Assembly: GCF_016786325.1 (NCBI RefSeq)
Contig: NZ_JADWYU010000107.1
Span: 1 to 46,354, forward strand
DNA: 46,354 nt
Origin: Frankia nepalensis
GTDB lineage: Bacteria; Actinomycetota; Actinomycetes; Frankiales; Frankiaceae
Direction: 5' to 3'
Positions 31,118 through 41,284 of the stretch are shown here, piece after piece. Each line of letters opens with the position of its first letter. Within the stretch, counting starts at the first letter, position 1. A program made the position numbers and the translations under genes. The notes beneath the pieces were generated by a model, which saw nothing but the letters and a program-made list of their open reading frames with translations, did no database searches and was not told the DNA's origin.

Positions 31118-31188
31118 GCGGGTGTAGCTCAATGGCAGAGCCCCAGCCTTCCAAGCTGGCCATGCCGGTTCGATCCCGGTCACCCGCT
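31118..31188 (+). tRNA. tRNA-Gly (anticodon TCC)
   Basis: A 71-base cloverleaf has acceptor GCGGGTG/CACCCGC, D stem GCTC/GAGC, anticodon arm CCAGC-CTTCCAA-GCTGG (anticodon TCC, reading GGA/GGG) and a T arm with TTCGATC. Discriminator T, no encoded CCA. The accessory-looking PPTase-methyltransferase cluster begins about 370 bases downstream; no repeated tRNA end that would mark an integration site was found beyond it. Confidence 0.95.
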
Positions 31189-31554
31189 CGCACAGGCCAG
31201 GCACCCAGCCGCTCATTTCTGGATGCAGCGGCAATTACCCATCGATTTCCCACCTCTCGGCCAGCTGGCGCGGGAGAAGGTCGCGCGCCGCCGTCACGGA
31301 CGGTGGCGACTCAGCCGTCCGCGATGGCCACTGCCTGTCCCGCGTAGCGCCGGGACCGTCGCGCCTCGGCCCCTCGCCGGTTTCGCTCCGCCTGGAAGAT
31401 GCTGGTCGTTTCGGGCCTCAGCGCCCGCGCGCGACTCCCTCGATCTTGTGTCGCCACGCCCGATCCAGGTAGCAGATCATCACCGGAAGCGATCGTGGGG
31501 CCCTGACGCGGACCACGGGAACGGCATTCCGGGTACGCCCGGGTCGGAGGGCCC
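31189..31554. other. Region between tRNA-Gly and the PPTase gene
   Basis: I see no supported gene. The first ~70 bases (near gctcatttctggatgcagcggc) are locally less GC-rich. The promoter of the PPTase-methyltransferase cluster should lie here but cannot be placed with confidence. Confidence 0.4.
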
Positions 31555-32358
31555 ATGGGCGGCGATGCGAAGCTTGGCTCCATGGCGGAGCTAAGGGCGG
31601 GGGTGGAGGCAGGGCTGCTCGGCTCGGTGGTGCCGGCGGCCGCGGTCGCGGTGGAGACGTTCACGGACGACCTCGAGGCCGTGCTCTTCCCGGCCGAGGA
31701 GGCGCTGCTCGCGCGGGCCGTCGAGAAACGGCGACGGGAGTTCACCACCGGGCGGGTGTGCGCGCGCCGGGCGCTCACGCGCCTTGGCGTCGCGCCGGGG
31801 CCGCTGCTGCCTGGACCCCAGCGGGAGCCACTGTGGCCGGCGGGGATCGTCGGCAGCATCACCCACACCGACGGCTACCGGGCCGCCGTCGTCGCCTGGG
31901 ACCGTGACCTGGTCTCCGTCGGGATCGACGCCGAGCCCAACGGTCCGACCCCGGAAGGGGTGTTCGAGCGAGTCTCGCTGCCGTCCGAGCGGGCGTGGGC
32001 GGACGCGGCGGCCCGGCGCGCGCCGGAGGTCCACTGGGACAGGCTGCTGTTCTGCGCCAAGGAGTCCGTCTACAAGACGTGGTTCCCGCTCGCCCGGCGC
32101 TGGCTCGGCTTCGAGGAGGCCGAGATCACCCTCACCGACGACGGCACCGCCGGCGCGCCGGGCACCACCGCCGGCGTGCCGGGCACCTCGGCGGACGCCG
32201 CCCGGGCAGGCACCGCCCGGACGGGCGGCTTTTCCGCCCGGCTGCTGGTACCCGGACCGACGCTGCCCGACGGGACCCGGCTGACGACACTCGCCGGCCG
32301 GTTCGTCGTCGACCGAGGGCTGATCGTCACCGCGATCACGCTCGGGGAGGCGGCATGA
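31555..32358 (+). CDS. 4'-phosphopantetheinyl transferase (EntD/Sfp superfamily)
   Basis: PPTases move phosphopantetheine from CoA to a serine of carrier proteins of fatty acid, polyketide or non-ribosomal peptide synthases. The 267-residue product has EFTTGRVCARRAL, GSITHTDGY, the metal-binding VGIDAE (Asp125, Glu127) and the FCAKESVYK motif (about residues 166-174), the full EntD-like signature. GGAGG lies four bases before the ATG at 31555; an in-frame ATG at 31582 is an alternative start. The C-terminal part has an Ala/Gly/Thr-rich linker. No carrier protein or synthase gene is in the window, so its target is elsewhere. The stop overlaps the start of the next gene (ATGA). Confidence 0.9.
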   Translation: MGGDAKLGSMAELRAGVEAGLLGSVVPAAAVAVETFTDDLEAVLFPAEEALLARAVEKRRREFTTGRVCARRALTRLGVAPGPLLPGPQREPLWPAGIVGSITHTDGYRAAVVAWDRDLVSVGIDAEPNGPTPEGVFERVSLPSERAWADAAARRAPEVHWDRLLFCAKESVYKTWFPLARRWLGFEEAEITLTDDGTAGAPGTTAGVPGTSADAARAGTARTGGFSARLLVPGPTLPDGTRLTTLAGRFVVDRGLIVTAITLGEAA

Positions 32359-34229
32359 GCGCGCGGCGCTGGCTGCCGGCGGCCGTGTGCGCCGGCGTCG
32401 CGCTGAACACCGCCCGGCTGCGCCGCCGCCTCGCGGCCCTGCCCGTCGCCCAGCCCTCCGACGACCGGGTCCATCACACCCACGTCTTCCTGCTCGCCGA
32501 CGGCGTGCGCCTCGACGACGCCCAGCAGCGCGCCGCCAGCGCCCACGCCCGCCGCCACGGTCTCGACGTCCTGGACCTCGTCCCCGCCGAGCTCACCGCC
32601 GACCGCCTGCTCGACCTGGCCCGGATGGTCGACACGACCACCTACCAGGCCGACCGGCTCGCCTGGGGCCGCGGCGCCTTCCAGGCCCTGCTGATCGACC
32701 GGGACGTGCTGACCCGCGCCGGCCTGCATCCCAAGGACGTCAACGAGGTCGACCTGGTCGCCATCACCGAGACCCTCAAGCGGTACGCGCCGGTGACGAC
32801 CGGCCTCGCGGTGCTGCCCGGGCTGCGCGCGGCGCCGCGGACGGGCGCGACCCGGCTCGCGGTCCAGCGGGCGGCGTACCGGTGGAACCCGCTGGGCCCG
32901 CTCGGCCCGACGCTGCGGGACGCGCTGCTGCTCGCCGGGTCGAGCGCCGCCCCGCGCTGGGCGCTGGCCGCCACCGCGCTGTCGGCCGCGCAGCCCGCCG
33001 TCGTCGGCGCGGGCCGGGTCCGGCTTGCTCCCGCCGACCTCGTCCGCGCCCCGCTGACCCGCCGCCGGGGTGCGGCCGAGCTGCTCGCGGACCTGACCGG
33101 CCGGGCCCGGTCGGCCCCGAAGGACCCGGCCGGCACGGGCGGCCGGCTGGCCCGCTGGTGGGTGGCGCCGCCGCGGGCGTTCACCCCCGACGACGCGGAG
33201 CACGCCGCCGAGATTCGGGCCGGCTACCGGGCAGACCTGGCCGGCGGCGTCGAGCGCTTTCTGGAGGCGGAGCGGTCCAGCTGCCCGTGGTGCGGCGGCA
33301 CGCGCCTGCGCAAAGTGATCACCGGGTTCGACGCGACCCAGGCGAAGCCGGGCCGGTTCCGCTACGACCGGTGCGCCGACTGCCGGCACGTGTTCCAGAA
33401 CCCCCGGCTGACCCTCGAAGGACTCGACTTCTACTACCGCGACTTCTACGACGGCCTCGGCGGCGAGCTCGCGGAGCTGATCGCCGGCGCTGGCGCCGGG
33501 CCGTACCTCGCCCGCGCTCGGGCGGTGCCGCCCACCCCCAACCGCTGGCTCGACGTCGGCGCCGGCCTCGGCCACTTCTGCCTCATCGCCCGCGACACCT
33601 GGCCCACCACCACCTTCGACGGCCTCGACCTCGGCGACGGCATCCACGAAGCAGCCCGCCGCGGCTGGATCAACACCGCCCACCACGGCCAGTTCCCCGA
33701 CCTCGCCGAAACATTCGCCGGCCACTACGACGTCATCAGCATGTTCCACTACCTCGAACACACCCGCGACCCACGCACCGAACTCGACGCCGCCAAAACC
33801 GCCCTCACCCCCGGCGGCCACCTCCTCATCGAAGTCCCCAACCCCGACAGCCCCGCCATGCGCATCTACGGACCGCTGTCGCCGGGCTGGATGGTGCCGC
33901 AGCACCAGCACCTGCTACCGGCGGACAACCTGGTCGCGGCGCTGACCGAACGCGGCTTCACCATCGAGAACCTCGAATTCGGCGACACGCACATGGGCGG
34001 CGACGGGATGTACGCCTGGTGGGCGCTGGCCCAGCGGCTCGCCCCCTCCCCGGGCCTCCCCTGGCGCGACGACCCGTATCCGAGCCTGGCCCGGGCCAAA
34101 CGGGCGGCGACGCTGGCGGCGCTCGGGCCGCTGTTCCCGCTTCTCGTCGCCGCGGAGGCCGCGAGCAAGCCGTATCTGACGCGTGGCACCCGTGCCAACG
34201 CCTACCGAATCCTCGCCCGGGTCCCGTGA
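32355..34229 (+). CDS. Modular zinc-ribbon SAM methyltransferase, paralogue 1
   Basis: The 624-residue product starts with a hydrophobic segment (WLPAAVCAGVALNTARL) ending in RLRRRL, which may anchor it to the membrane. An unrecognised domain follows (about residues 30-270, with HVFLLADGVRLDDAQQRA, TLKRYAPVTTGLAVLPG). A four-Cys zinc ribbon comes next, CPWCG (310-314) and CADC (340-343), then a class I methyltransferase with motif I DVGAGLGHF (400-408), YDVISMFHYLEHT and LIEVPNPDS. The C-terminus ends PYLTRGTRANAYRIL. The start ATG overlaps the PPTase stop. Methylation is inferred from the fold; the substrate is unknown. Bases 33339-33877 and 33910-33985 are identical to paralogue 3. Confidence 0.85.
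   Translation: MSARRWLPAAVCAGVALNTARLRRRLAALPVAQPSDDRVHHTHVFLLADGVRLDDAQQRAASAHARRHGLDVLDLVPAELTADRLLDLARMVDTTTYQADRLAWGRGAFQALLIDRDVLTRAGLHPKDVNEVDLVAITETLKRYAPVTTGLAVLPGLRAAPRTGATRLAVQRAAYRWNPLGPLGPTLRDALLLAGSSAAPRWALAATALSAAQPAVVGAGRVRLAPADLVRAPLTRRRGAAELLADLTGRARSAPKDPAGTGGRLARWWVAPPRAFTPDDAEHAAEIRAGYRADLAGGVERFLEAERSSCPWCGGTRLRKVITGFDATQAKPGRFRYDRCADCRHVFQNPRLTLEGLDFYYRDFYDGLGGELAELIAGAGAGPYLARARAVPPTPNRWLDVGAGLGHFCLIARDTWPTTTFDGLDLGDGIHEAARRGWINTAHHGQFPDLAETFAGHYDVISMFHYLEHTRDPRTELDAAKTALTPGGHLLIEVPNPDSPAMRIYGPLSPGWMVPQHQHLLPADNLVAALTERGFTIENLEFGDTHMGGDGMYAWWALAQRLAPSPGLPWRDDPYPSLARAKRAATLAALGPLFPLLVAAEAASKPYLTRGTRANAYRILARVP
33339..33877 (+). repeat. 539-bp block identical to 37295-37833
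   Basis: Read base by base, this segment of paralogue 1 matches paralogue 3 without a difference. It covers the second zinc knuckle and most of the methyltransferase core. Its second half prefers GAA for Glu and CTC for Leu, unlike the GAG/CTG preference of the flanks and of paralogue 2. After a 32-base diverged island (33878-33909) identity resumes for 76 bases (33910-33985). Confidence 0.95.
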
Positions 34230-34254
34230 ACCCGACTCTCGCCCGGGAGGCCTC

Positions 34255-36162
34255 GTGAACCGCTGGCACTGGCTGTCGGCCGCCGTGTGCGCCGGGGTCG
34301 GGCTGAACACCGCCCGGCTGCGCCGCCGGCTCGCCGCCGTGGCGGTCATCGAGCCGTCCGACGCCCCGGTCCACCACTCCCACGTCTTCCTGTTCGCCGA
34401 CGGCGTGCGCCTCGACGAGGCCCAGCAGCGCGCCGCCAGCGCCCACGCCCGCCGCCACGGCCTCGACGTCCTGGATATTGTCCCCGCCGAGCTCACCGCC
34501 GACCGCCTGCTCGACCTGGCCCGCCTGGTCGACGCCACCACCTACCAACAGGCCCGGTTGGCCCCCGGCCGTGGCGCCTACCAGGCGCTGCTCATCGACC
34601 GCGACGTGCTCACCCGCGCCGGCCTGCGGCTGAAGGACGTCACGGAAGTCGACCTGGTGACGGTCACCGCCACACTGAAGCGGTACGCGCCGGTGACGAC
34701 CGGGCTCGCGGTGCTGCCCGGGCTGCGGGCCGCGCCCCGGACCGGCGCGCGGCGGCTCGCCGTGCGGCACGAGGCCTACCGCTGGGACCCCGCTGCCCCG
34801 CTGGGCCCGCTGCTGCGTGACCTCGCGCTCGCCCGCGGGCTCGCCGCCGCGCCTGGCTGGACGCTCGCGGCGGGCGCGGTCAGCTGGCTGCAGCCAGCCG
34901 TCGTCGCGGCGGGCGGGCCGATCCGGCTGCGCCCGGCCGAGGCGCTGGCCTCGCCACTGACCCGGCGGCGCGCGGCCGCCGAGTTCGTCGCCGACCTCGC
35001 CGGCCGCGGGCGGCGGCCGTCCGACGGCCCGGCGCTCGACCTCGCCGCCGCGGACGGCGGCCCTGCCCAGCCCGCGCGGTGGCGGTTCTCGTTACCGCGG
35101 GCGTTTCCCACCGAGGACGAGGCACGCGCCGCCGAGCTGCGGGCGGCCTACACGGCCGAGCTCACCGACGGCGTCGAGCGGTTCCTGGAGAAACCGCGGG
35201 TCACCTGCCCATGGTGCGGGGGCGGCCGGCTGCGCAAGGTGATCGACGGCTTCGACGCGACCCAGGCCAAACCGGGCCGGTTCCGCTACGGCCGGTGCGC
35301 CGACTGCCGGCACGTGTTCCTGAACCCGCGGCTGACCCCTGATGGTCTCGACTTCTACTACCGCGACTTCTACGACGGCCTCGGTGCTCCGATCATGGAG
35401 GTGATCGCCGAGGCCAGCCGTGACCGCTATCTTTCCCGGGCACGCTCGGTGCCGGCGACCTCCGCGACCCCGACGAGGTGGCTCGACGTCGGCGCGGGCA
35501 TGGGCCACTTCTGCCTGATGGCGCGCTCCGTCTGGCCCGACACCGCCTTCCACGGCCTCGACCTGGGCGACGCCCTCGAGGAGGGGACCCGGCGCGGCTG
35601 GCTCGACCACGCCTACCGGGGCCAGTTCCCCGAGCTCGCGGGGTCGTTCGCCGGCCGCTACGACGTGGTCAGCATGTTCCACTATCTGGAGCACACCCTC
35701 GACCCGCGCGCCGAGCTCGCCGCCGCGGCCACGGCGCTGCGCCCCGGCGGCCGCCTGCTCATCGAGGTCCCCAACCCGGACAGTCTCTCGGCGCGCGTCT
35801 ACGGGCCGTTGTGGTCGGGCTGGCTCGCGCCGCAGCACCTGAACCTGGTGCCCGCCGACAACCTCGTCACGGCGCTGACCGAGCACGGCTTCACCGTCGA
35901 GAACGTCGACTTCGGCGAGACGCACCTGGACGGCGACGGGATGTTCGCCTGGTGGGCGCTGTGCCAGCGGCTTGCCCCGTCGGCCGGCCTGCCATGGCGC
36001 TCGGGCACGCATCCGGGCACGGGCCGGGCCCGGCGCGCGGCGACGCTCGCCGCGCTCGCGCCGCTGTATCCGGCGTTCGTCGCCGCGGACGCGGCCGCCC
36101 GCCCCTATCTGACGAGCGGTCGGCGGGCGAACGCCTACCGCGTCCTGGCCCAATTGTCATGA
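34255..36162 (+). CDS. Modular zinc-ribbon SAM methyltransferase, paralogue 2
   Basis: The 635-residue product has the same architecture as its neighbours: hydrophobic N-terminus (WLSAAVCAGVGLNTARL), the unrecognised domain with HVFLFADGVRLDEAQQRA, zinc ribbon CPWCG (318-322) with CADC, and methyltransferase motif I DVGAGMGHF (from 411), YDVVSMFHYLEHT and LIEVPNPDS. GTG start at 34255 with GGAGG four bases upstream, 25 bases after the paralogue 1 stop. Its core is diverged at DNA level from paralogues 1 and 3, showing normal GAG-rich codon use. A second hydrophobic stretch lies near residues 200-225 (LAAAPGWTLAAGAVSWLQPAVVAA region). Confidence 0.85.
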   Translation: MNRWHWLSAAVCAGVGLNTARLRRRLAAVAVIEPSDAPVHHSHVFLFADGVRLDEAQQRAASAHARRHGLDVLDIVPAELTADRLLDLARLVDATTYQQARLAPGRGAYQALLIDRDVLTRAGLRLKDVTEVDLVTVTATLKRYAPVTTGLAVLPGLRAAPRTGARRLAVRHEAYRWDPAAPLGPLLRDLALARGLAAAPGWTLAAGAVSWLQPAVVAAGGPIRLRPAEALASPLTRRRAAAEFVADLAGRGRRPSDGPALDLAAADGGPAQPARWRFSLPRAFPTEDEARAAELRAAYTAELTDGVERFLEKPRVTCPWCGGGRLRKVIDGFDATQAKPGRFRYGRCADCRHVFLNPRLTPDGLDFYYRDFYDGLGAPIMEVIAEASRDRYLSRARSVPATSATPTRWLDVGAGMGHFCLMARSVWPDTAFHGLDLGDALEEGTRRGWLDHAYRGQFPELAGSFAGRYDVVSMFHYLEHTLDPRAELAAAATALRPGGRLLIEVPNPDSLSARVYGPLWSGWLAPQHLNLVPADNLVTALTEHGFTVENVDFGETHLDGDGMFAWWALCQRLAPSAGLPWRSGTHPGTGRARRAATLAALAPLYPAFVAADAAARPYLTSGRRANAYRVLAQLS

Positions 36163-36196
36163 CGGGCGCTCGGAGCGCGAGCTGGCCGGAGGTGCC

Positions 36197-38185
36197 GTGA
36201 ACGGCAGGTACTGGTTGTCGGTGGCCGTGTGCGCCGGGGTCGGGCTGAACTCCGCCCGGCTGCGCCGCCGGCTGGCCGCGCTTCCCGTCATCGAGGCGTC
36301 CGACGACCGGCCGCACCACTCCCACGTGTTCCTGCTCGCCGACGGCGTGCGCCTCGACGAGGCCCAGCAGCGCGCCGCCAGCGCGCACGCGCTGCGCCAC
36401 GGTCTGCATGTCCTCGACCTGGTGCCGGCCGAGTTCACCCCCGACCGGCTGCTGGACCTGGCCCGCCTCGTCAACACCGGCAGCTACCAGGCAGACCGGT
36501 TGGCCCCCGGCCGGGGCGCCTACCAGGCGCTGCTCATCGACCGCGACGTGCTCACCCGCGCCGGCCTGCACCTGAAGGACGTCACCGAGACGGACCTGGT
36601 CACCGCGCTGGAGACCCTCAAGCGGTACGCGCCGGTGACGACCGGCCTCGCCGTGCTCCCCGGGCTGCGCGCGGCGACCAGGACGGGCGCCGCGCGGTTC
36701 AGCGTGCGCCGGGCCGCCTACAGCTGGGAGCCGACGAGCCTGGCCGCGCCGCTGGTCCGCGACGCGCTGCTCGTCGCCGGGGCGACGGCGGCCCCGGGTT
36801 GGGCGCTGTCCGCCGCGGCGCTGTCCGCCCTGCAGCCGGCCGTCGTCGCGGCCGGTGGCCCGGTGCGGCTTCGCCCGCGCGATCTGCTGGCCGCGCCGCT
36901 CGCGCGCCGCCGTGGCGCCGCCGAGCTGCTCGCCGACCTCGTCGGCGCGACGCCCGCCGGACGGCGCTCCCTCACCGGCCGGCAATCCCCCGCCGGACGG
37001 CACTCCCTCGCCGGGCGGCGCGCTCCAGCCGACAGGCGTCCTCCAGCCGACAGGCACTCCCCGGCCGACAAGCGCTCCCCGGCCGCCGCCGAAGCGGACG
37101 GACTGGCGCGCTGGAAGATCACCCTGCCGCGGCAGTACGCCGCCGCCGACGCCGAGCAGGCCGCCGAGGTCCGCGCGGACTACCGGGCCGAGCTCGCGGC
37201 GGGCGTCGCGCGGTTCTTCGAGCCGCGCCGGGACACCTGCCCCTGGTGCGGGAGCGACCGGCCGCGCCGGTTCCTCGTCGGCGCCGACGCCATGCAGGCG
37301 AAGCCGGGCCGGTTCCGCTACGACCGGTGCGCCGACTGCCGGCACGTGTTCCAGAACCCCCGGCTGACCCTCGAAGGACTCGACTTCTACTACCGCGACT
37401 TCTACGACGGCCTCGGCGGCGAGCTCGCGGAGCTGATCGCCGGCGCTGGCGCCGGGCCGTACCTCGCCCGCGCTCGGGCGGTGCCGCCCACCCCCAACCG
37501 CTGGCTCGACGTCGGCGCCGGCCTCGGCCACTTCTGCCTCATCGCCCGCGACACCTGGCCCACCACCACCTTCGACGGCCTCGACCTCGGCGACGGCATC
37601 CACGAAGCAGCCCGCCGCGGCTGGATCAACACCGCCCACCACGGCCAGTTCCCCGACCTCGCCGAAACATTCGCCGGCCACTACGACGTCATCAGCATGT
37701 TCCACTACCTCGAACACACCCGCGACCCACGCACCGAACTCGACGCCGCCAAAACCGCCCTCACCCCCGGCGGCCACCTCCTCATCGAAGTCCCCAACCC
37801 CGACAGCCCCGCCATGCGCATCTACGGACCGCTCGCGTCCGGAATGCTGATTCCCCAGCATCTGAACCTGCTACCGGCGGACAACCTGGTCGCGGCGCTG
37901 ACCGAACGCGGCTTCACCATCGAGAACCTCGAATTCGGCGAGACCCACATCTCCGGGGACGCGCCGATGGCCTGGTGGGGCCTGTGCCAGCGGCTCGCCC
38001 CCTCCCCCGGCCTCCCCTGGCGCGACGACCCGCGCCCCGCCTGGAGCCGGGCCAGGCGGGCGGCGACGCTGGCGGCGCTCGGGCCACTGCTGCCCGCCGC
38101 GGCGCTCGCGGAGGCGGCGACCCGCCCCTACCTGACCCGCGGCACCCGCGCCAACGCCTACCGGGTCCTCGCCCGGCTCGGCTAG
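36197..38185 (+). CDS. Modular zinc-ribbon SAM methyltransferase, paralogue 3
   Basis: The 662-residue product starts at GTG 36197 with GGAGGT just upstream, 34 bases after paralogue 2. It has the hydrophobic N-terminus (YWLSVAVCAGVGLNSARL), the unrecognised domain, an 18-bp minisatellite-coded linker of Ser/Pro/Ala/Arg (about residues 253-296), a zinc ribbon CPWCG (348-352) and CADC, and motif I DVGAGLGHF (from 438). The first zinc knuckle (CPWCGSDRPRRFLVGADAM) differs from the CPWCGG-RLRKVI form of paralogues 1 and 2, but from the QAKPGR motif on, the protein is identical to paralogue 1 for about 180 residues. This marks a recombination junction inside the zinc ribbon. Confidence 0.85.
   Translation: MNGRYWLSVAVCAGVGLNSARLRRRLAALPVIEASDDRPHHSHVFLLADGVRLDEAQQRAASAHALRHGLHVLDLVPAEFTPDRLLDLARLVNTGSYQADRLAPGRGAYQALLIDRDVLTRAGLHLKDVTETDLVTALETLKRYAPVTTGLAVLPGLRAATRTGAARFSVRRAAYSWEPTSLAAPLVRDALLVAGATAAPGWALSAAALSALQPAVVAAGGPVRLRPRDLLAAPLARRRGAAELLADLVGATPAGRRSLTGRQSPAGRHSLAGRRAPADRRPPADRHSPADKRSPAAAEADGLARWKITLPRQYAAADAEQAAEVRADYRAELAAGVARFFEPRRDTCPWCGSDRPRRFLVGADAMQAKPGRFRYDRCADCRHVFQNPRLTLEGLDFYYRDFYDGLGGELAELIAGAGAGPYLARARAVPPTPNRWLDVGAGLGHFCLIARDTWPTTTFDGLDLGDGIHEAARRGWINTAHHGQFPDLAETFAGHYDVISMFHYLEHTRDPRTELDAAKTALTPGGHLLIEVPNPDSPAMRIYGPLASGMLIPQHLNLLPADNLVAALTERGFTIENLEFGETHISGDAPMAWWGLCQRLAPSPGLPWRDDPRPAWSRARRAATLAALGPLLPAAALAEAATRPYLTRGTRANAYRVLARLG
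36952..37086 (+). repeat. 18-bp in-frame minisatellite in paralogue 3
   Basis: About seven imperfect 18-bp units encode a six-residue motif S-[P/L]-A-[G/D]-R-x (SLTGRQ, SPAGRH, SLAGRR, APADRR, PPADRH, SPADKR). It forms a basic flexible linker between the N-terminal domain and the zinc ribbon and is absent from paralogues 1 and 2. Confidence 0.85.
37295..37833 (+). repeat. 539-bp block identical to 33339-33877
   Basis: This is the paralogue 3 copy of the shared methyltransferase core. The diverged island that follows is 37834-37865 and the second identical block is 37866-37941. Identity breaks on the left inside the zinc ribbon, where this gene reads atgcaggcg against acccaggcg. Confidence 0.95.
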
Positions 38186-38266: not shown

Positions 38267-38506
38267 ATGGCCGTGTGCGAGGTCTGCAGCAACGACTACG
38301 CGATGAGCTTCGAGGTGCACGCCCAGGGCGCCGTGCACGTGTTCGACAGCTTCGAGTGCGCGATCCACGCCATGAGCCCCGTGTGCGAGCACTGCGGGGT
38401 GAAGATCAGCGGCCACGGGGTGGAGGCGAGCGGCCGGTTCTTCTGTTGCGCGCACTGCGCCCGCGCCGTCGGGGTCGGTCCCGAACTGGTCCGCGACCAC
38501 GCCTGA
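38267..38506 (+). CDS. Small Cys-rich putative zinc-binding protein
   Basis: The 79-residue product holds nine cysteines and five histidines in a CEVC, FECAIH, CEHC, CCAHC pattern that looks like two interlocked zinc sites. Similar short proteins are widespread in actinobacteria as uncharacterised or metallothionein-like proteins; the function is not known to me. ATG at 38267 with AAGGGAG ten bases upstream. It is a separate gene 81 bases after the methyltransferase cluster; whether it is functionally linked is unclear. Confidence 0.8.
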   Translation: MAVCEVCSNDYAMSFEVHAQGAVHVFDSFECAIHAMSPVCEHCGVKISGHGVEASGRFFCCAHCARAVGVGPELVRDHA

Positions 38507-38662: not shown

Positions 38663-41284
38663 GTGACGACGACGTCCACCGCGCAGGCCCCCCAGCTGGC
38701 GGTCCACAGGTCCATCGAAGCCAGGATCGCCGAGGAGCTCGGGGTACGCGCGACGCAGGTCTCGGCGGCCGTCGAGCTGCTCGACGGCGGCTCGACCGTC
38801 CCGTTCATCGCGCGCTACCGCAAGGAGGTGACCGGCACCCTCGACGACGCGCAGCTGCGCACCCTCGAGGAGCGGCTGCGCTACCTGCGTGAGTTGGAGG
38901 AGCGCCGGGCGGCGATCCTGGAGTCGATCCGTTCCCAGGGCAAGCTCGACGACGCGCTCGAGGCGCAGATCAACGCGGCCGACTCGAAGGCCCGGCTCGA
39001 GGACATCTACCTCCCCTACAAGCCGAAGCGGCGCACCAAGGCGCAGATCGCCCGCGAGGCGGGCCTGGAGCCGCTGGCCGACGCGCTGCTCGCCGACCCG
39101 GCGCTCGACCCCGCCGCGACCGCCGCCGGCTACGTCAACCCGGAGGCGGGCGTCGCCGACGCCCCCGCGGCGCTCGACGGGGCCCGCGCGATCCTGGTCG
39201 AGCGGTTCGCCGAGGACGCGGACCTGATCGGCGACCTGCGCGAGCGGATGTGGAGCTGCGGCCGGATGGTCTCCAAGGTCCGCGAGGGCAAGGAGGAGGC
39301 CGGCGCCAAGTTCGCCGACTACTTCGCCTTCGACGAGCCGTTCACCTCGCTGCCGTCCCACCGGATCCTGGCCCTCTTCCGCGGCGAGAAGGAGGAGGTC
39401 CTCGACCTGGACCTCGACCCGGAGCCGGAGGACGCCGATCCGACCGCCCTCGCCGGGCCCTCGGCGTACGAGACCCGGATCGCCGCCCGCTTCGGCGTCG
39501 CCGACCAGGGCCGCCCGGCGGACAGGTGGCTCTCCGACACGGTGCGCTGGGCCTGGCGGACCCGCGTCCTGGTGCACCTCGGCATCGACCTGCGGCTGCG
39601 GCTGTTCCAGGCGGCCGAGGACGAGGCCGTGCGGGTGTTCGCGGCGAACCTGCGTGACCTGCTGCTGGCCGCGCCGGCCGGCGCCCGCTCGACGATGGGC
39701 CTCGACCCCGGCTACCGCACCGGCGTCAAGGTCGCGGTCGTCGACGCCACCGGCAAGGTCGTCGCCACCGACACGATCTACCCGCACGTGCCGGCGCGCC
39801 GCTGGGACGAGGCGCTGGCCAAGCTCGGCGCGCTGTGCGCCGCCCACCAGGTCGACCTGATCGCGATCGGCAACGGCACCGCGTCGCGCGAGACCGACAA
39901 GCTCGCCGAGGAGCTGGTGCGCAGGGCGCCGGAGCTGAAGCTCACCAAGATCGTGGTCTCCGAGGCCGGGGCGTCGGTCTACTCCGCGTCCGCCTACGCG
40001 TCCCGGGAACTGCCGGGGATGGACGTGTCGCTGCGCGGCGCGGTCTCGATCGCGCGCCGGCTGCAGGACCCGCTGGCCGAGCTGGTCAAGATCGACCCGA
40101 AGTCGATCGGTGTCGGCCAGTACCAGCACGACGTGAGCGAGCTGAAGCTGTCGCGCTCGCTCGACGCCGTGGTCGAGGACTGCGTGAACGCCGTCGGCGT
40201 GGACGTGAACACCGCCTCGGCGCCGCTGCTGACCAGGGTGTCCGGGATCGGCGCCACGCTCGCCGAGAACATCGTCGCGCACCGGGACGCCACCGGGCCG
40301 TTCCGGACCAGGGCGGCGCTGCGCGAGGTGCCGCGGCTGGGCCCGAAGGCGTTCGAGCAGTGCGCCGGCTTCCTGCGCATCCCCGGCGGTGACGACCCGC
40401 TGGACGCCTCCAGCGTGCATCCCGAGGCCTACCCGGTGGTCCGCCGGATCCTGACCTCGACGAGCACCGACCTGGGCGGGCTGATCGGCAACGCCGGCGT
40501 GCTGCGCGCGGTGAAGGCGACGGACTTCGTCGACGAGAAGTTCGGCCTGCCGACGGTGTCCGACATCCTCGCCGAACTGGAGAAGCCGGGCCGGGACCCA
40601 CGGCCGGCGTTCAAGACCGCCACCTTCGCCGAGGGCGTGCACGAGCTGTCGGACCTGGTCGCCGGAATGGTGCTCGAGGGTGTGGTCACGAACGTCGCCG
40701 CGTTCGGCGCCTTCGTCGACGTCGGCGTCCATCAGGACGGGCTGGTGCACGTGTCCGCGATGTCGAAGAACTTCGTGCGCGACCCGCGCGAGGTCGCCAA
40801 GCCCGGCGACATCGTCAAGGTGAAGGTGCTCGATGTCGACATCCCGCGCAAGCGGATCTCGTTGACGCTGCGCCTGGACGACGAGTCGACCGCCGGCGCG
40901 GCCACCGGCGGTGGCCGGGAGGGCCGTGGCCGACCGGCCGGCCGCGACGGCCGCCAGGACGGCGGCGGGCAGCCGGTCGGACGGGCGAACGGCACCCGCG
41001 AGGGCGGCGGCCGAGACGGCGGTGGGCGCGGCGGCGGCCGGGACAGCGGCGGGCGCGGGGGTGACGGACGGCGACGTGACGCCGCGCCAGCGGGAGCTGG
41101 AGCGGGCCCCAACAACTCCCGTGGCGGTTCCGGCGACTCCCGTGGCGGTTCCGGTCCGCGCGGCGGCGGACGCGGGCAGCGCGGCGGCGGGCGCGGGGCG
41201 CCTCCGCCGACTGGCGCGATCGCCGACGCGCTGCGCCGCGCCGGGCTCGTCGACGAGAACGGCGTTCCCCGCACGGGGCGCTGA
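38663..41284 (+). CDS. tex: Transcription accessory protein Tex with Gly/Arg-rich tail
   Basis: Tex is an RNA-binding protein related to eukaryotic Spt6. The 873-residue product has the N-terminal helical region ([15 protein letters not shown]), the YEDIY-like [12 protein letters not shown] segment, a YqgF-type RNase-H-like domain ([17 protein letters not shown]), helix-hairpin-helix motifs ([16 protein letters not shown]), and a C-terminal S1 domain (about residues 670-740, [14 protein letters not shown]). Residues ~745-873 form a Gly/Arg-rich tail with [15 protein letters not shown] and two near-identical [14 protein letters not shown] repeats. GTG start at 38663 with GGAGGAG upstream. Confidence 0.95.

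Follow-up and report, generated by a model that had tools for sequence, protein, structure and literature searches.

Tandem zinc-ribbon methyltransferase genes behind a phosphopantetheinyl transferase gene in Frankia nepalensis and their possible link to a glycolipid pathway that resembles polyunsaturated fatty acid synthases

What could three consecutive, closely similar methyltransferases, encoded directly behind a phosphopantetheinyl transferase in a region that lacks carrier protein and synthase genes, be modifying? The question is raised by a stretch of Frankia nepalensis DNA of 46,354 nucleotides (the window; contig C373 of a 10.7 Mb, 398-contig assembly). Here, all on the forward strand, the gene for a 267 aa PptT/Npt-type 4'-phosphopantetheinyl transferase (PPTase; 31555-32358, with an alternative start at 31582; Pfam and PDB sequence matches) precedes an array of three paralogous open reading frames (ORFs) with Pfam matches, MT1 (32355-34229; 624 aa), MT2 (34255-36162; 635 aa; the sequence used for modelling) and MT3 (36197-38185; 662 aa). 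The PPTase stop and the MT1 start overlap as ATGA at 32355-32358, MT1 and MT2 are 25 bases apart and MT2 and MT3 34; this confirms the arrangement described in the original prediction, a note made from the sequence alone. The three proteins have a common layout, namely an N-terminal domain that looks like a degenerate family 2 glycosyltransferase (GT2), a Cys4 zinc ribbon and a class I S-adenosylmethionine (SAM)-dependent methyltransferase domain, with an extra low-complexity linker in MT3. In MT2, the N-terminal domain comprises residues 1-252 (34255-35010; delineated by the structural model, VIA-align, hhalign and residue counts), the zinc ribbon about residues 312-356 (35188-35322; cysteine conservation) and the methyltransferase about residues 362-635 (35338-36159; Pfam family Methyltransf_23 and the fold match to MtmC). 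On balance, we lean towards the view that MT1-MT3 are trans-acting paralogs of a tailoring methyltransferase from a glycolipid pathway built on an iterative polyketide synthase (PKS) similar to polyunsaturated fatty acid (PUFA) synthases, with the N-terminal domain as a docking part.

The principal evidence comes from the gene neighborhoods of the homologs. The scan of related loci retained the 80 best of the 130 stretches that were confirmed, with frequencies that lean to close relatives, and some of these loci probably overlap with the 35 Frankiaceae genomes that were also searched (e.g., L034 with G006 and L035 with G012). Because the gene caller missed some genes, including that of the window PPTase, the cassette counts are those of tblastn within the fetched flanks, with 20 Frankiaceae-titled loci as the contrast set. 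Among the 60 non-Frankiaceae loci, matches were found to a protein that we denote PKS-B in 51 (such queries can match any type I PKS), to an acyl carrier protein (ACP) in 49, to an alpha/beta hydrolase in 49 and to a glycosyltransferase in 54; all 51 loci with PKS-B also hold the glycosyltransferase and/or the hydrolase, and PKS-B is present in 1 of the 20 Frankiaceae-titled loci. The usual gene order is PKS-A, PKS-B, ACP, hydrolase, glycosyltransferase (UGT), methyltransferase, often followed by a galactokinase/GHMP-like gene (c5; e.g., L061:11850-12746). The latter usually stands right after the methyltransferase gene, in 16 loci by clustering and in 22 of the 60 by tblastn, and hints at a sugar that might be made or activated for the cassette pathway. 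PKS-A consists of a nitronate-monooxygenase-like enoyl reductase (ER), ketosynthase (KS), acyltransferase (AT), ACP and ketoreductase (KR) domains, and PKS-B of KS, AT and dehydratase (DH) domains with a C-terminal PPTase domain; the best NCBIfam model for the PKS is PfaA, with a score under the cut-off. An annotated Streptomyces plasmid shows the arrangement: type I PKS, KS protein, ACP, alpha/beta hydrolase, glycosyltransferase and class I methyltransferase follow one another in this order, and from the KS protein through the methyltransferase the gene ends overlap or are at most 3 bases apart. On a second plasmid, the methyltransferase gene lies beside those of an acyltransferase and a glycosyltransferase, with no PKS. 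Within Frankiaceae, PKS-B (E 1e-140 or better) was detected in 25 of the 35 genomes, among them G008 and G010, where the cassette is present, and in 21 of the 25 a methyltransferase copy is at most 10 kb away; in the other four (G000, G009, G011 and G013) the two are on different contigs.

The cassette resembles the secondary lipid (Pfa-like) synthases of Shulse and Allen, which likewise combine a PfaA-like KS-AT-ACP-KR protein, a KS-DH protein and an ER/nitronate-monooxygenase domain; it may correspond to their Type M, an uncharacterized synthase given there for all three Frankia listed (Shulse and Allen 2011, PMC3098273). Unlike those clusters, the window array stands outside any such cluster, and the text of that paper uses neither the word glycosyltransferase nor the word methyltransferase. 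Other PUFA-synthase hybrids are treated in PMC13291983. In the open-licence literature, judged by the listings, we found no paper that describes this methyltransferase family or names the cassette product.

The assignment of the C-terminal halves of MT1-MT3 is straightforward. All three match Methyltransf_23 (PF13489) with E-values of 1.2e-29 to 3.5e-29 (102.1-103.5 bits, against a cut-off of 27), and the four zinc-ribbon cysteines (C318, C321, C348 and C351) as well as the methyltransferase residues D411, G413, Y477 and E479 are invariant in 66 of the 66 aligned homologs, so that the succession of N-terminal domain, Cys4 ribbon and class I methyltransferase proposed earlier stands. The full-length AlphaFold2 model of MT2, computed with the 66-row alignment, is of high quality (predicted local distance difference test score 91, predicted template modelling score (pTM) 0.90), and its ribbon and methyltransferase parts are most similar to the nucleoside diphosphate (NDP)-sugar C-methyltransferases MtmC, KijD1 and TcaB9 (Z 18.4-21.4; the next row has Z 17.0). 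The best match is MtmC, with model residues 310-635 superimposed on residues 6-266 (Z 21.4, 2.7 A over 241 residues). The likeness extends to the domain order, as in MtmC, KijD1 and TcaB9, too, a zinc-binding domain is followed by a class I methyltransferase. In contrast to that group, MT2 has an additional N-terminal domain and no C-terminal one (its C-terminus aligns to residue 266 of the 419 of MtmC, and no further Pfam domain follows the methyltransferase), the identity is 19%, and the group is not among the PDB sequence matches. We do not file the family with the MtmC group, although it is built like it, because it lacks the C-terminal domain, one of the defining features of the latter. 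In seven pairs, the ratio of nonsynonymous to synonymous substitutions (dN/dS) is 0.15-0.43 for the N-terminal domain and 0.17-0.60 for the methyltransferase half, with the MT1-MT3 pair distorted by a tract common to both; these values indicate purifying selection on both halves, and the N-terminal domain is not decaying.

The N-terminal domain is an unusual part of these proteins. The first ~300 residues of MT1-MT3 match no Pfam family above the cut-off, the domain alone yields 0 families for the window row and scattered matches each in 1 or 2 of the 66 members, and the Pfam GT2 family has no match in the 66 members at E 1; a known Pfam family is thereby ruled out in both full-length and domain-only searches. 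A PDB sequence search with the domain profile gave chance matches only (E 0.26 and above). Two hydrophobic segments had been noted in this part; the first, a helix at residues 3-27, proved only mildly hydrophobic (mean Kyte-Doolittle 0.31 over residues 3-21), whereas the second, residues 183-219, is stronger (about 1.0). The domain was modelled separately, as the fold search with the full model was filled by methyltransferase matches, and the resulting model (pTM 0.88) has a GT-A/GT2-like fold with an N-terminal helix and a C-terminal helical hairpin. Nearly all of the 50 matches on the weak Foldseek list are named glycosyltransferases. VIA-align over the Foldseek candidates places hyaluronan synthases on top (Z 10.2, 4.2 A, 238 of 255 residues), ahead of other membrane and soluble glycosyltransferases; the 50 listed rows, which we take to be of the GT-A class, are glycosyltransferases or polysaccharide synthases, with 3ckj titled only as a mycobacterial protein. 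Comparison by hhalign with a 32-row GT2 family template, presumably of the HpnB/CrtQ type, gave a score of 35.2, whereas the highest score among 150 column-shuffled templates was 22.8; the aligned part starts at the DxD motif of the template. In the register of this alignment, on which the placement rests, the two aspartate columns of the DxD are occupied by A in 51 of 66 and by G in 56 of 66 rows, and the column of the catalytic base by L in 49 of 66.

Taken together, these results make it quite probable that the N-terminal domain is a truncated, inactive GT2, seemingly devoid of the nucleotide-binding half of GT-A, so the domain that the original prediction left unrecognised would most likely have an origin. 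It resembles membrane and processive GT2 enzymes such as hyaluronan synthase and ArnC in the sequence of helix, GT-A core and membrane-facing helices and in the profile similarity from the DxD onward, and differs from them in that half of GT-A is apparently lacking, the DxD and base are lost in most rows and the domain is fused to a methyltransferase. The assignment is weakened by several observations. Foldseek returned 0 matches at E 0.001 or below for the domain model (best 0.022). The template was built around one GT2 ORF, L204, that was chosen after a first look, so that the comparison was not blind; among 20 own-genome GT2 ORFs compared singly by hhalign, L204 stands out (E 4.6e-4) and the other 19 have P 0.068 or worse, with L195 in the register of L204 over 118 columns (P 0.29), and an alignment of all 20 gave Prob 0.2. 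The column that precedes that of the lost base holds E or D in 56 of 66 rows, and 25 of 66 have an acidic residue in the middle column of the DxD; with these acidic neighbors, a register shift of one residue would make the loss of the active site less complete. Some cassettes of the same type hold homologs of ~350 aa that lack the domain, as would be expected if it is accessory, and on the quick tree the long and short forms require no fewer than 3 changes.

The copies in the window appear to be a side branch of this family. In a quick tree of the methyltransferase part (84 rows, no bootstrap, several long branches, and only three Frankiaceae cassette copies, all from the genus of the window), 27 Frankiaceae rows form one set (node value 95), and a 19-row set with the copies from the clpX-tig region (98) contains a 10-row genus set (99) to which MT1-MT3 belong. 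Most simply, the window array is a Frankiaceae duplicate of the family that was amplified in this genus. It holds three copies in the window and two in G002, G003, G004 and G006, the four other unbroken arrays; in the drafts of G001, G005 and G007 it is split, with one end on one contig and the other on another, which is what internal repeats would lead one to expect. A tract of 539 bases is identical in MT1 (33339-33877) and MT3 (37295-37833); it spans zinc-ribbon and methyltransferase sequence and lies between diverged flanks. The remaining 60-base blocks of the two genes are 61-96% identical, except for one more at 100%, and the GC content is 0.709 in the tracts and 0.73-0.79 in the rest of MT1 and MT3. 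The tract would be the product of recent gene conversion, of duplication or of a copy error in the assembly. With two copies in the four unbroken arrays of other species and this identity between MT1 and MT3, the earlier suggestion of three specificities is not supported.

We propose the following scenario. An acyl chain would be built by the (ER-)KS-AT-ACP-KR and KS-AT-DH-PPTase proteins and passed on by the stand-alone ACP and the alpha/beta hydrolase; a macrolide-type glycosyltransferase would then add a sugar, and the zinc-ribbon methyltransferase would methylate the product, with the sugar or an adjacent position as the most likely site. The N-terminal domain, as a GT2 reduced to its acceptor-side half with the metal and base residues apparently lost and the membrane-facing helices kept, would probably dock the enzyme at the membrane and hold the glycolipid or a carrier-bound acceptor. 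In Frankiaceae, a duplicated copy may have settled in the clpX-tig region and given rise, in this genus, to the tandem array; a general PptT-type PPTase, encoded beside a PptH-like hydrolase in a sister genus, would have come to stand before it, so that the genes for carrier activation and for methylation may by now be co-expressed. In this scenario, gene order, family, predicted fold, cassette association and the changed PPTase neighborhood come from computation, and substrate, chemistry, docking role and co-expression are inferred. The idea of the original prediction that the array modifies carrier-bound or lipid-linked substrates at the membrane is thus borne out in part, by relatives in PKS-ACP-hydrolase-glycosyltransferase cassettes and by the predicted similarity to membrane GT2 enzymes, and it leaned too hard on the adjacency of the PPTase. 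Other findings count against the pathway assignment itself. No PKS-B match was obtained in 9 of the 60 non-Frankiaceae loci, 6 of which have the full ~10 kb on both sides. Homologs of the cassette PKS-B, ACP, hydrolase, glycosyltransferase and c5 are absent from the whole window (tblastn, E 1e-3), in agreement with the earlier remark that no carrier protein or synthase gene is nearby. The own genome encodes a further copy of the methyltransferase at the end of contig C59, which probably belongs to its own cassette on C83. Because the window holds no PKS, ACP or glycosyltransferase and this further copy exists, any partner of the array is putative.

The part played by the PPTase is the point on which an alternative fares best. 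The protein matches the Pfam domains 4PPT_N (E 1.5e-30, 105.5 bits; cut-off 27) and ACPS (E 3.6e-15, 56.4 bits; cut-off 25) and the solved PptT chains in the PDB (E 4.9e-59), and its best NCBIfam models are PptT (238.6 of 365 bits) and Npt (243 of 370), both under the curated 'exception' cut-offs; we conclude that it is a general enzyme of the PptT type. It is the sole match in its own genome, and a second match is absent in 7 of the 8 genomes of the genus. In all 8, it closely precedes the array, or the first copy where the contig ends. Outside the genus, the PPTase was found in 24 of 27 family genomes, and adjacency to a methyltransferase gene was not seen, where contig ends could hide some cases: in the single-contig genomes G008, G010 and G012 of the sister genus g2, about 370-455 kb lie between the PPTase gene and the closest methyltransferase gene, and in the other non-genus family genomes the listed rows of the two are never on one contig. 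Conservation of the adjacency in relatives, on which the original prediction had staked its proposal, is therefore complete within the genus and was not observed beyond it, which speaks in part against the proposal.

The PPTase neighborhoods were read in four non-genus genomes (G008, G010, G012 and, for genus g6, G025; loci L240, L241, L242 and L244). In the three g2 genomes, a metallophosphoesterase gene stands before that of the PPTase, and the G012 protein matches PDB 6unc_A, which we take to be PptH, with E 6e-104. In the genus of the window, the phosphoesterase match lies away from the PPTase in 8 of 8 genomes (1.1 Mb off in G002, otherwise far off or on another contig) and spans 1-2 in-frame stops in 7 of the 8. 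The g2 arrangement recalls the Mycobacterium pair of PptT (rv2794c; PMC8007978) and PptH (Rv2795c), described as opposing the PPTase (PMC8557913); unlike that pair, the two genes are apart in the genus of the window, and the PPTase gene precedes the methyltransferase array there. Thus, the neighbors of the PPTase gene have changed in the course of the family's history, and only in this genus does the gene precede the array. A plain statement that it was relocated out of a PptH operon is weakened, the phosphoesterase being beside the PPTase in 3 of the 4 non-genus neighborhoods and not in G025.

The adjacency may also lack any functional meaning and go back to a chance rearrangement that became fixed in the common ancestor of the genus. 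This reading has a nearly even chance of being right: the adjacency is confined to one genus, and the neighbors of the PPTase vary from the PptH-like phosphoesterase (three g2 genomes) through an enoyl-CoA hydratase (G025, with neither PptH nor a methyltransferase alongside) to the array (8 of 8 genomes of the genus, here g1), so that, for a general enzyme with such changing company, drift may be the explanation, to the detriment of the co-expression that we propose. The start-stop overlap in the window and the close spacing in all 8 genomes speak for a functional link, and an adjacency kept in all 8 genomes, with dN/dS below 1 in both halves of the methyltransferases, does not look like chance.

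The tandem copies might also act in trans on a different product. A second type of cassette in the genus, read in L136, L137, L138, L140 and L141 (five genomes), consists of two PKS genes, an ACP, a hydrolase and an ABC-transporter-like gene, with no methyltransferase gene; a glycosyltransferase was called in L140 only, and the gene caller may have missed others. It is doubtful that the array serves this cassette, even if the lack of a methyltransferase in all five would leave a place for it, given that G000 has only fragments of a second PKS-B and that no clear one is listed for G001 or G007. Unlikely, too, is a role of the array in methylating acyl chains on the phosphopantetheine arm of a carrier protein with the PPTase as a dedicated partner. 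The ATGA overlap, the adjacency in 8 of 8 genomes and the ACP genes next to the relatives would all fit such a role, but a general PptT-type enzyme with no second match in 7 of the 8 genomes is hardly a dedicated one, its adjacency was not seen outside the genus, and the cassette methyltransferase gene comes after those of the hydrolase and the glycosyltransferase, which suggests, without showing it, action after release of the chain. Finally, a bifunctional protein with an active glycosyltransferase in the N-terminal domain is very improbable, since, for all that the GT-A-like fold with flanking helices of the GT2 synthase type, the purifying selection and the acidic residue before the lost base would suit it, the DxD columns are mostly A and G, the base column is mostly L, the profile alignment begins only at the DxD with the nucleotide-binding half seemingly absent, and short cassette homologs do without the domain.

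Returning to the glycolipid pathway, we can tentatively picture a wider scheme, which we regard as possible and not as probable: a membrane-docked methyltransferase family would have recruited a dead GT2 as a platform for the glycolipid acceptor and would decorate the product of a widespread PUFA-synthase-like glycolipid pathway of Actinomycetota and Myxococcota (a contig from Acidobacteriota also carries a relative), and in one genus it would have become a tandem, PPTase-coupled module away from the synthase. Through the methyltransferase family, an orphan glycolipid pathway that recurs in many of the actinomycete loci found becomes accessible by way of a specific enzyme. For the cassette copy, loss of the single gene would be expected to lower the mass of the product by about 14 Da per methyl group and so to reveal the lipid. 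The analysis also offers an origin for an N-terminal domain that no searched library names, and a case of a general PPTase gene fronting a tailoring array and not beside the putative opposing hydrolase.

The surroundings of the array are those of a housekeeping region, with gene names assigned from the sequences: upstream are clpX, clpP, tig, tRNA-Pro and tRNA-Gly, the last of which, tRNA-Gly(tcc), was located by ARAGORN at 31118-31189 on the forward strand, and downstream, beyond a small Cys-rich gene, is a tex-like gene for an RNA-binding protein (38663-41284, forward strand; an ORF kept as a neighbor in the genus loci). A function in anti-phage defence was considered and rejected, as PADLOC has no match for any of the four proteins. 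A connection with Frankia vesicle lipids was likewise weighed and dropped as speculative. A solitary third type of methyltransferase copy was observed in the genus (L115, L117 and L120), and in G002 (L117:10284-12461) and Frankia sp. AgB1.9 (L048) the gene that precedes such a copy encodes a PASTA-domain Ser/Thr kinase. The Cys-rich protein encoded directly after MT3 (79 aa; 38267-38506, forward strand; an ORF with no Pfam match) is conserved more strongly than the methyltransferases, with 87-94% identity in 7 other genomes of the genus, where it also follows the last methyltransferase gene, and it is possibly co-transcribed with the array; a homolog is present in 12 of 27 other Frankiaceae genomes, and in the single-contig G010 it is encoded ~59 kb from the nearest methyltransferase gene.

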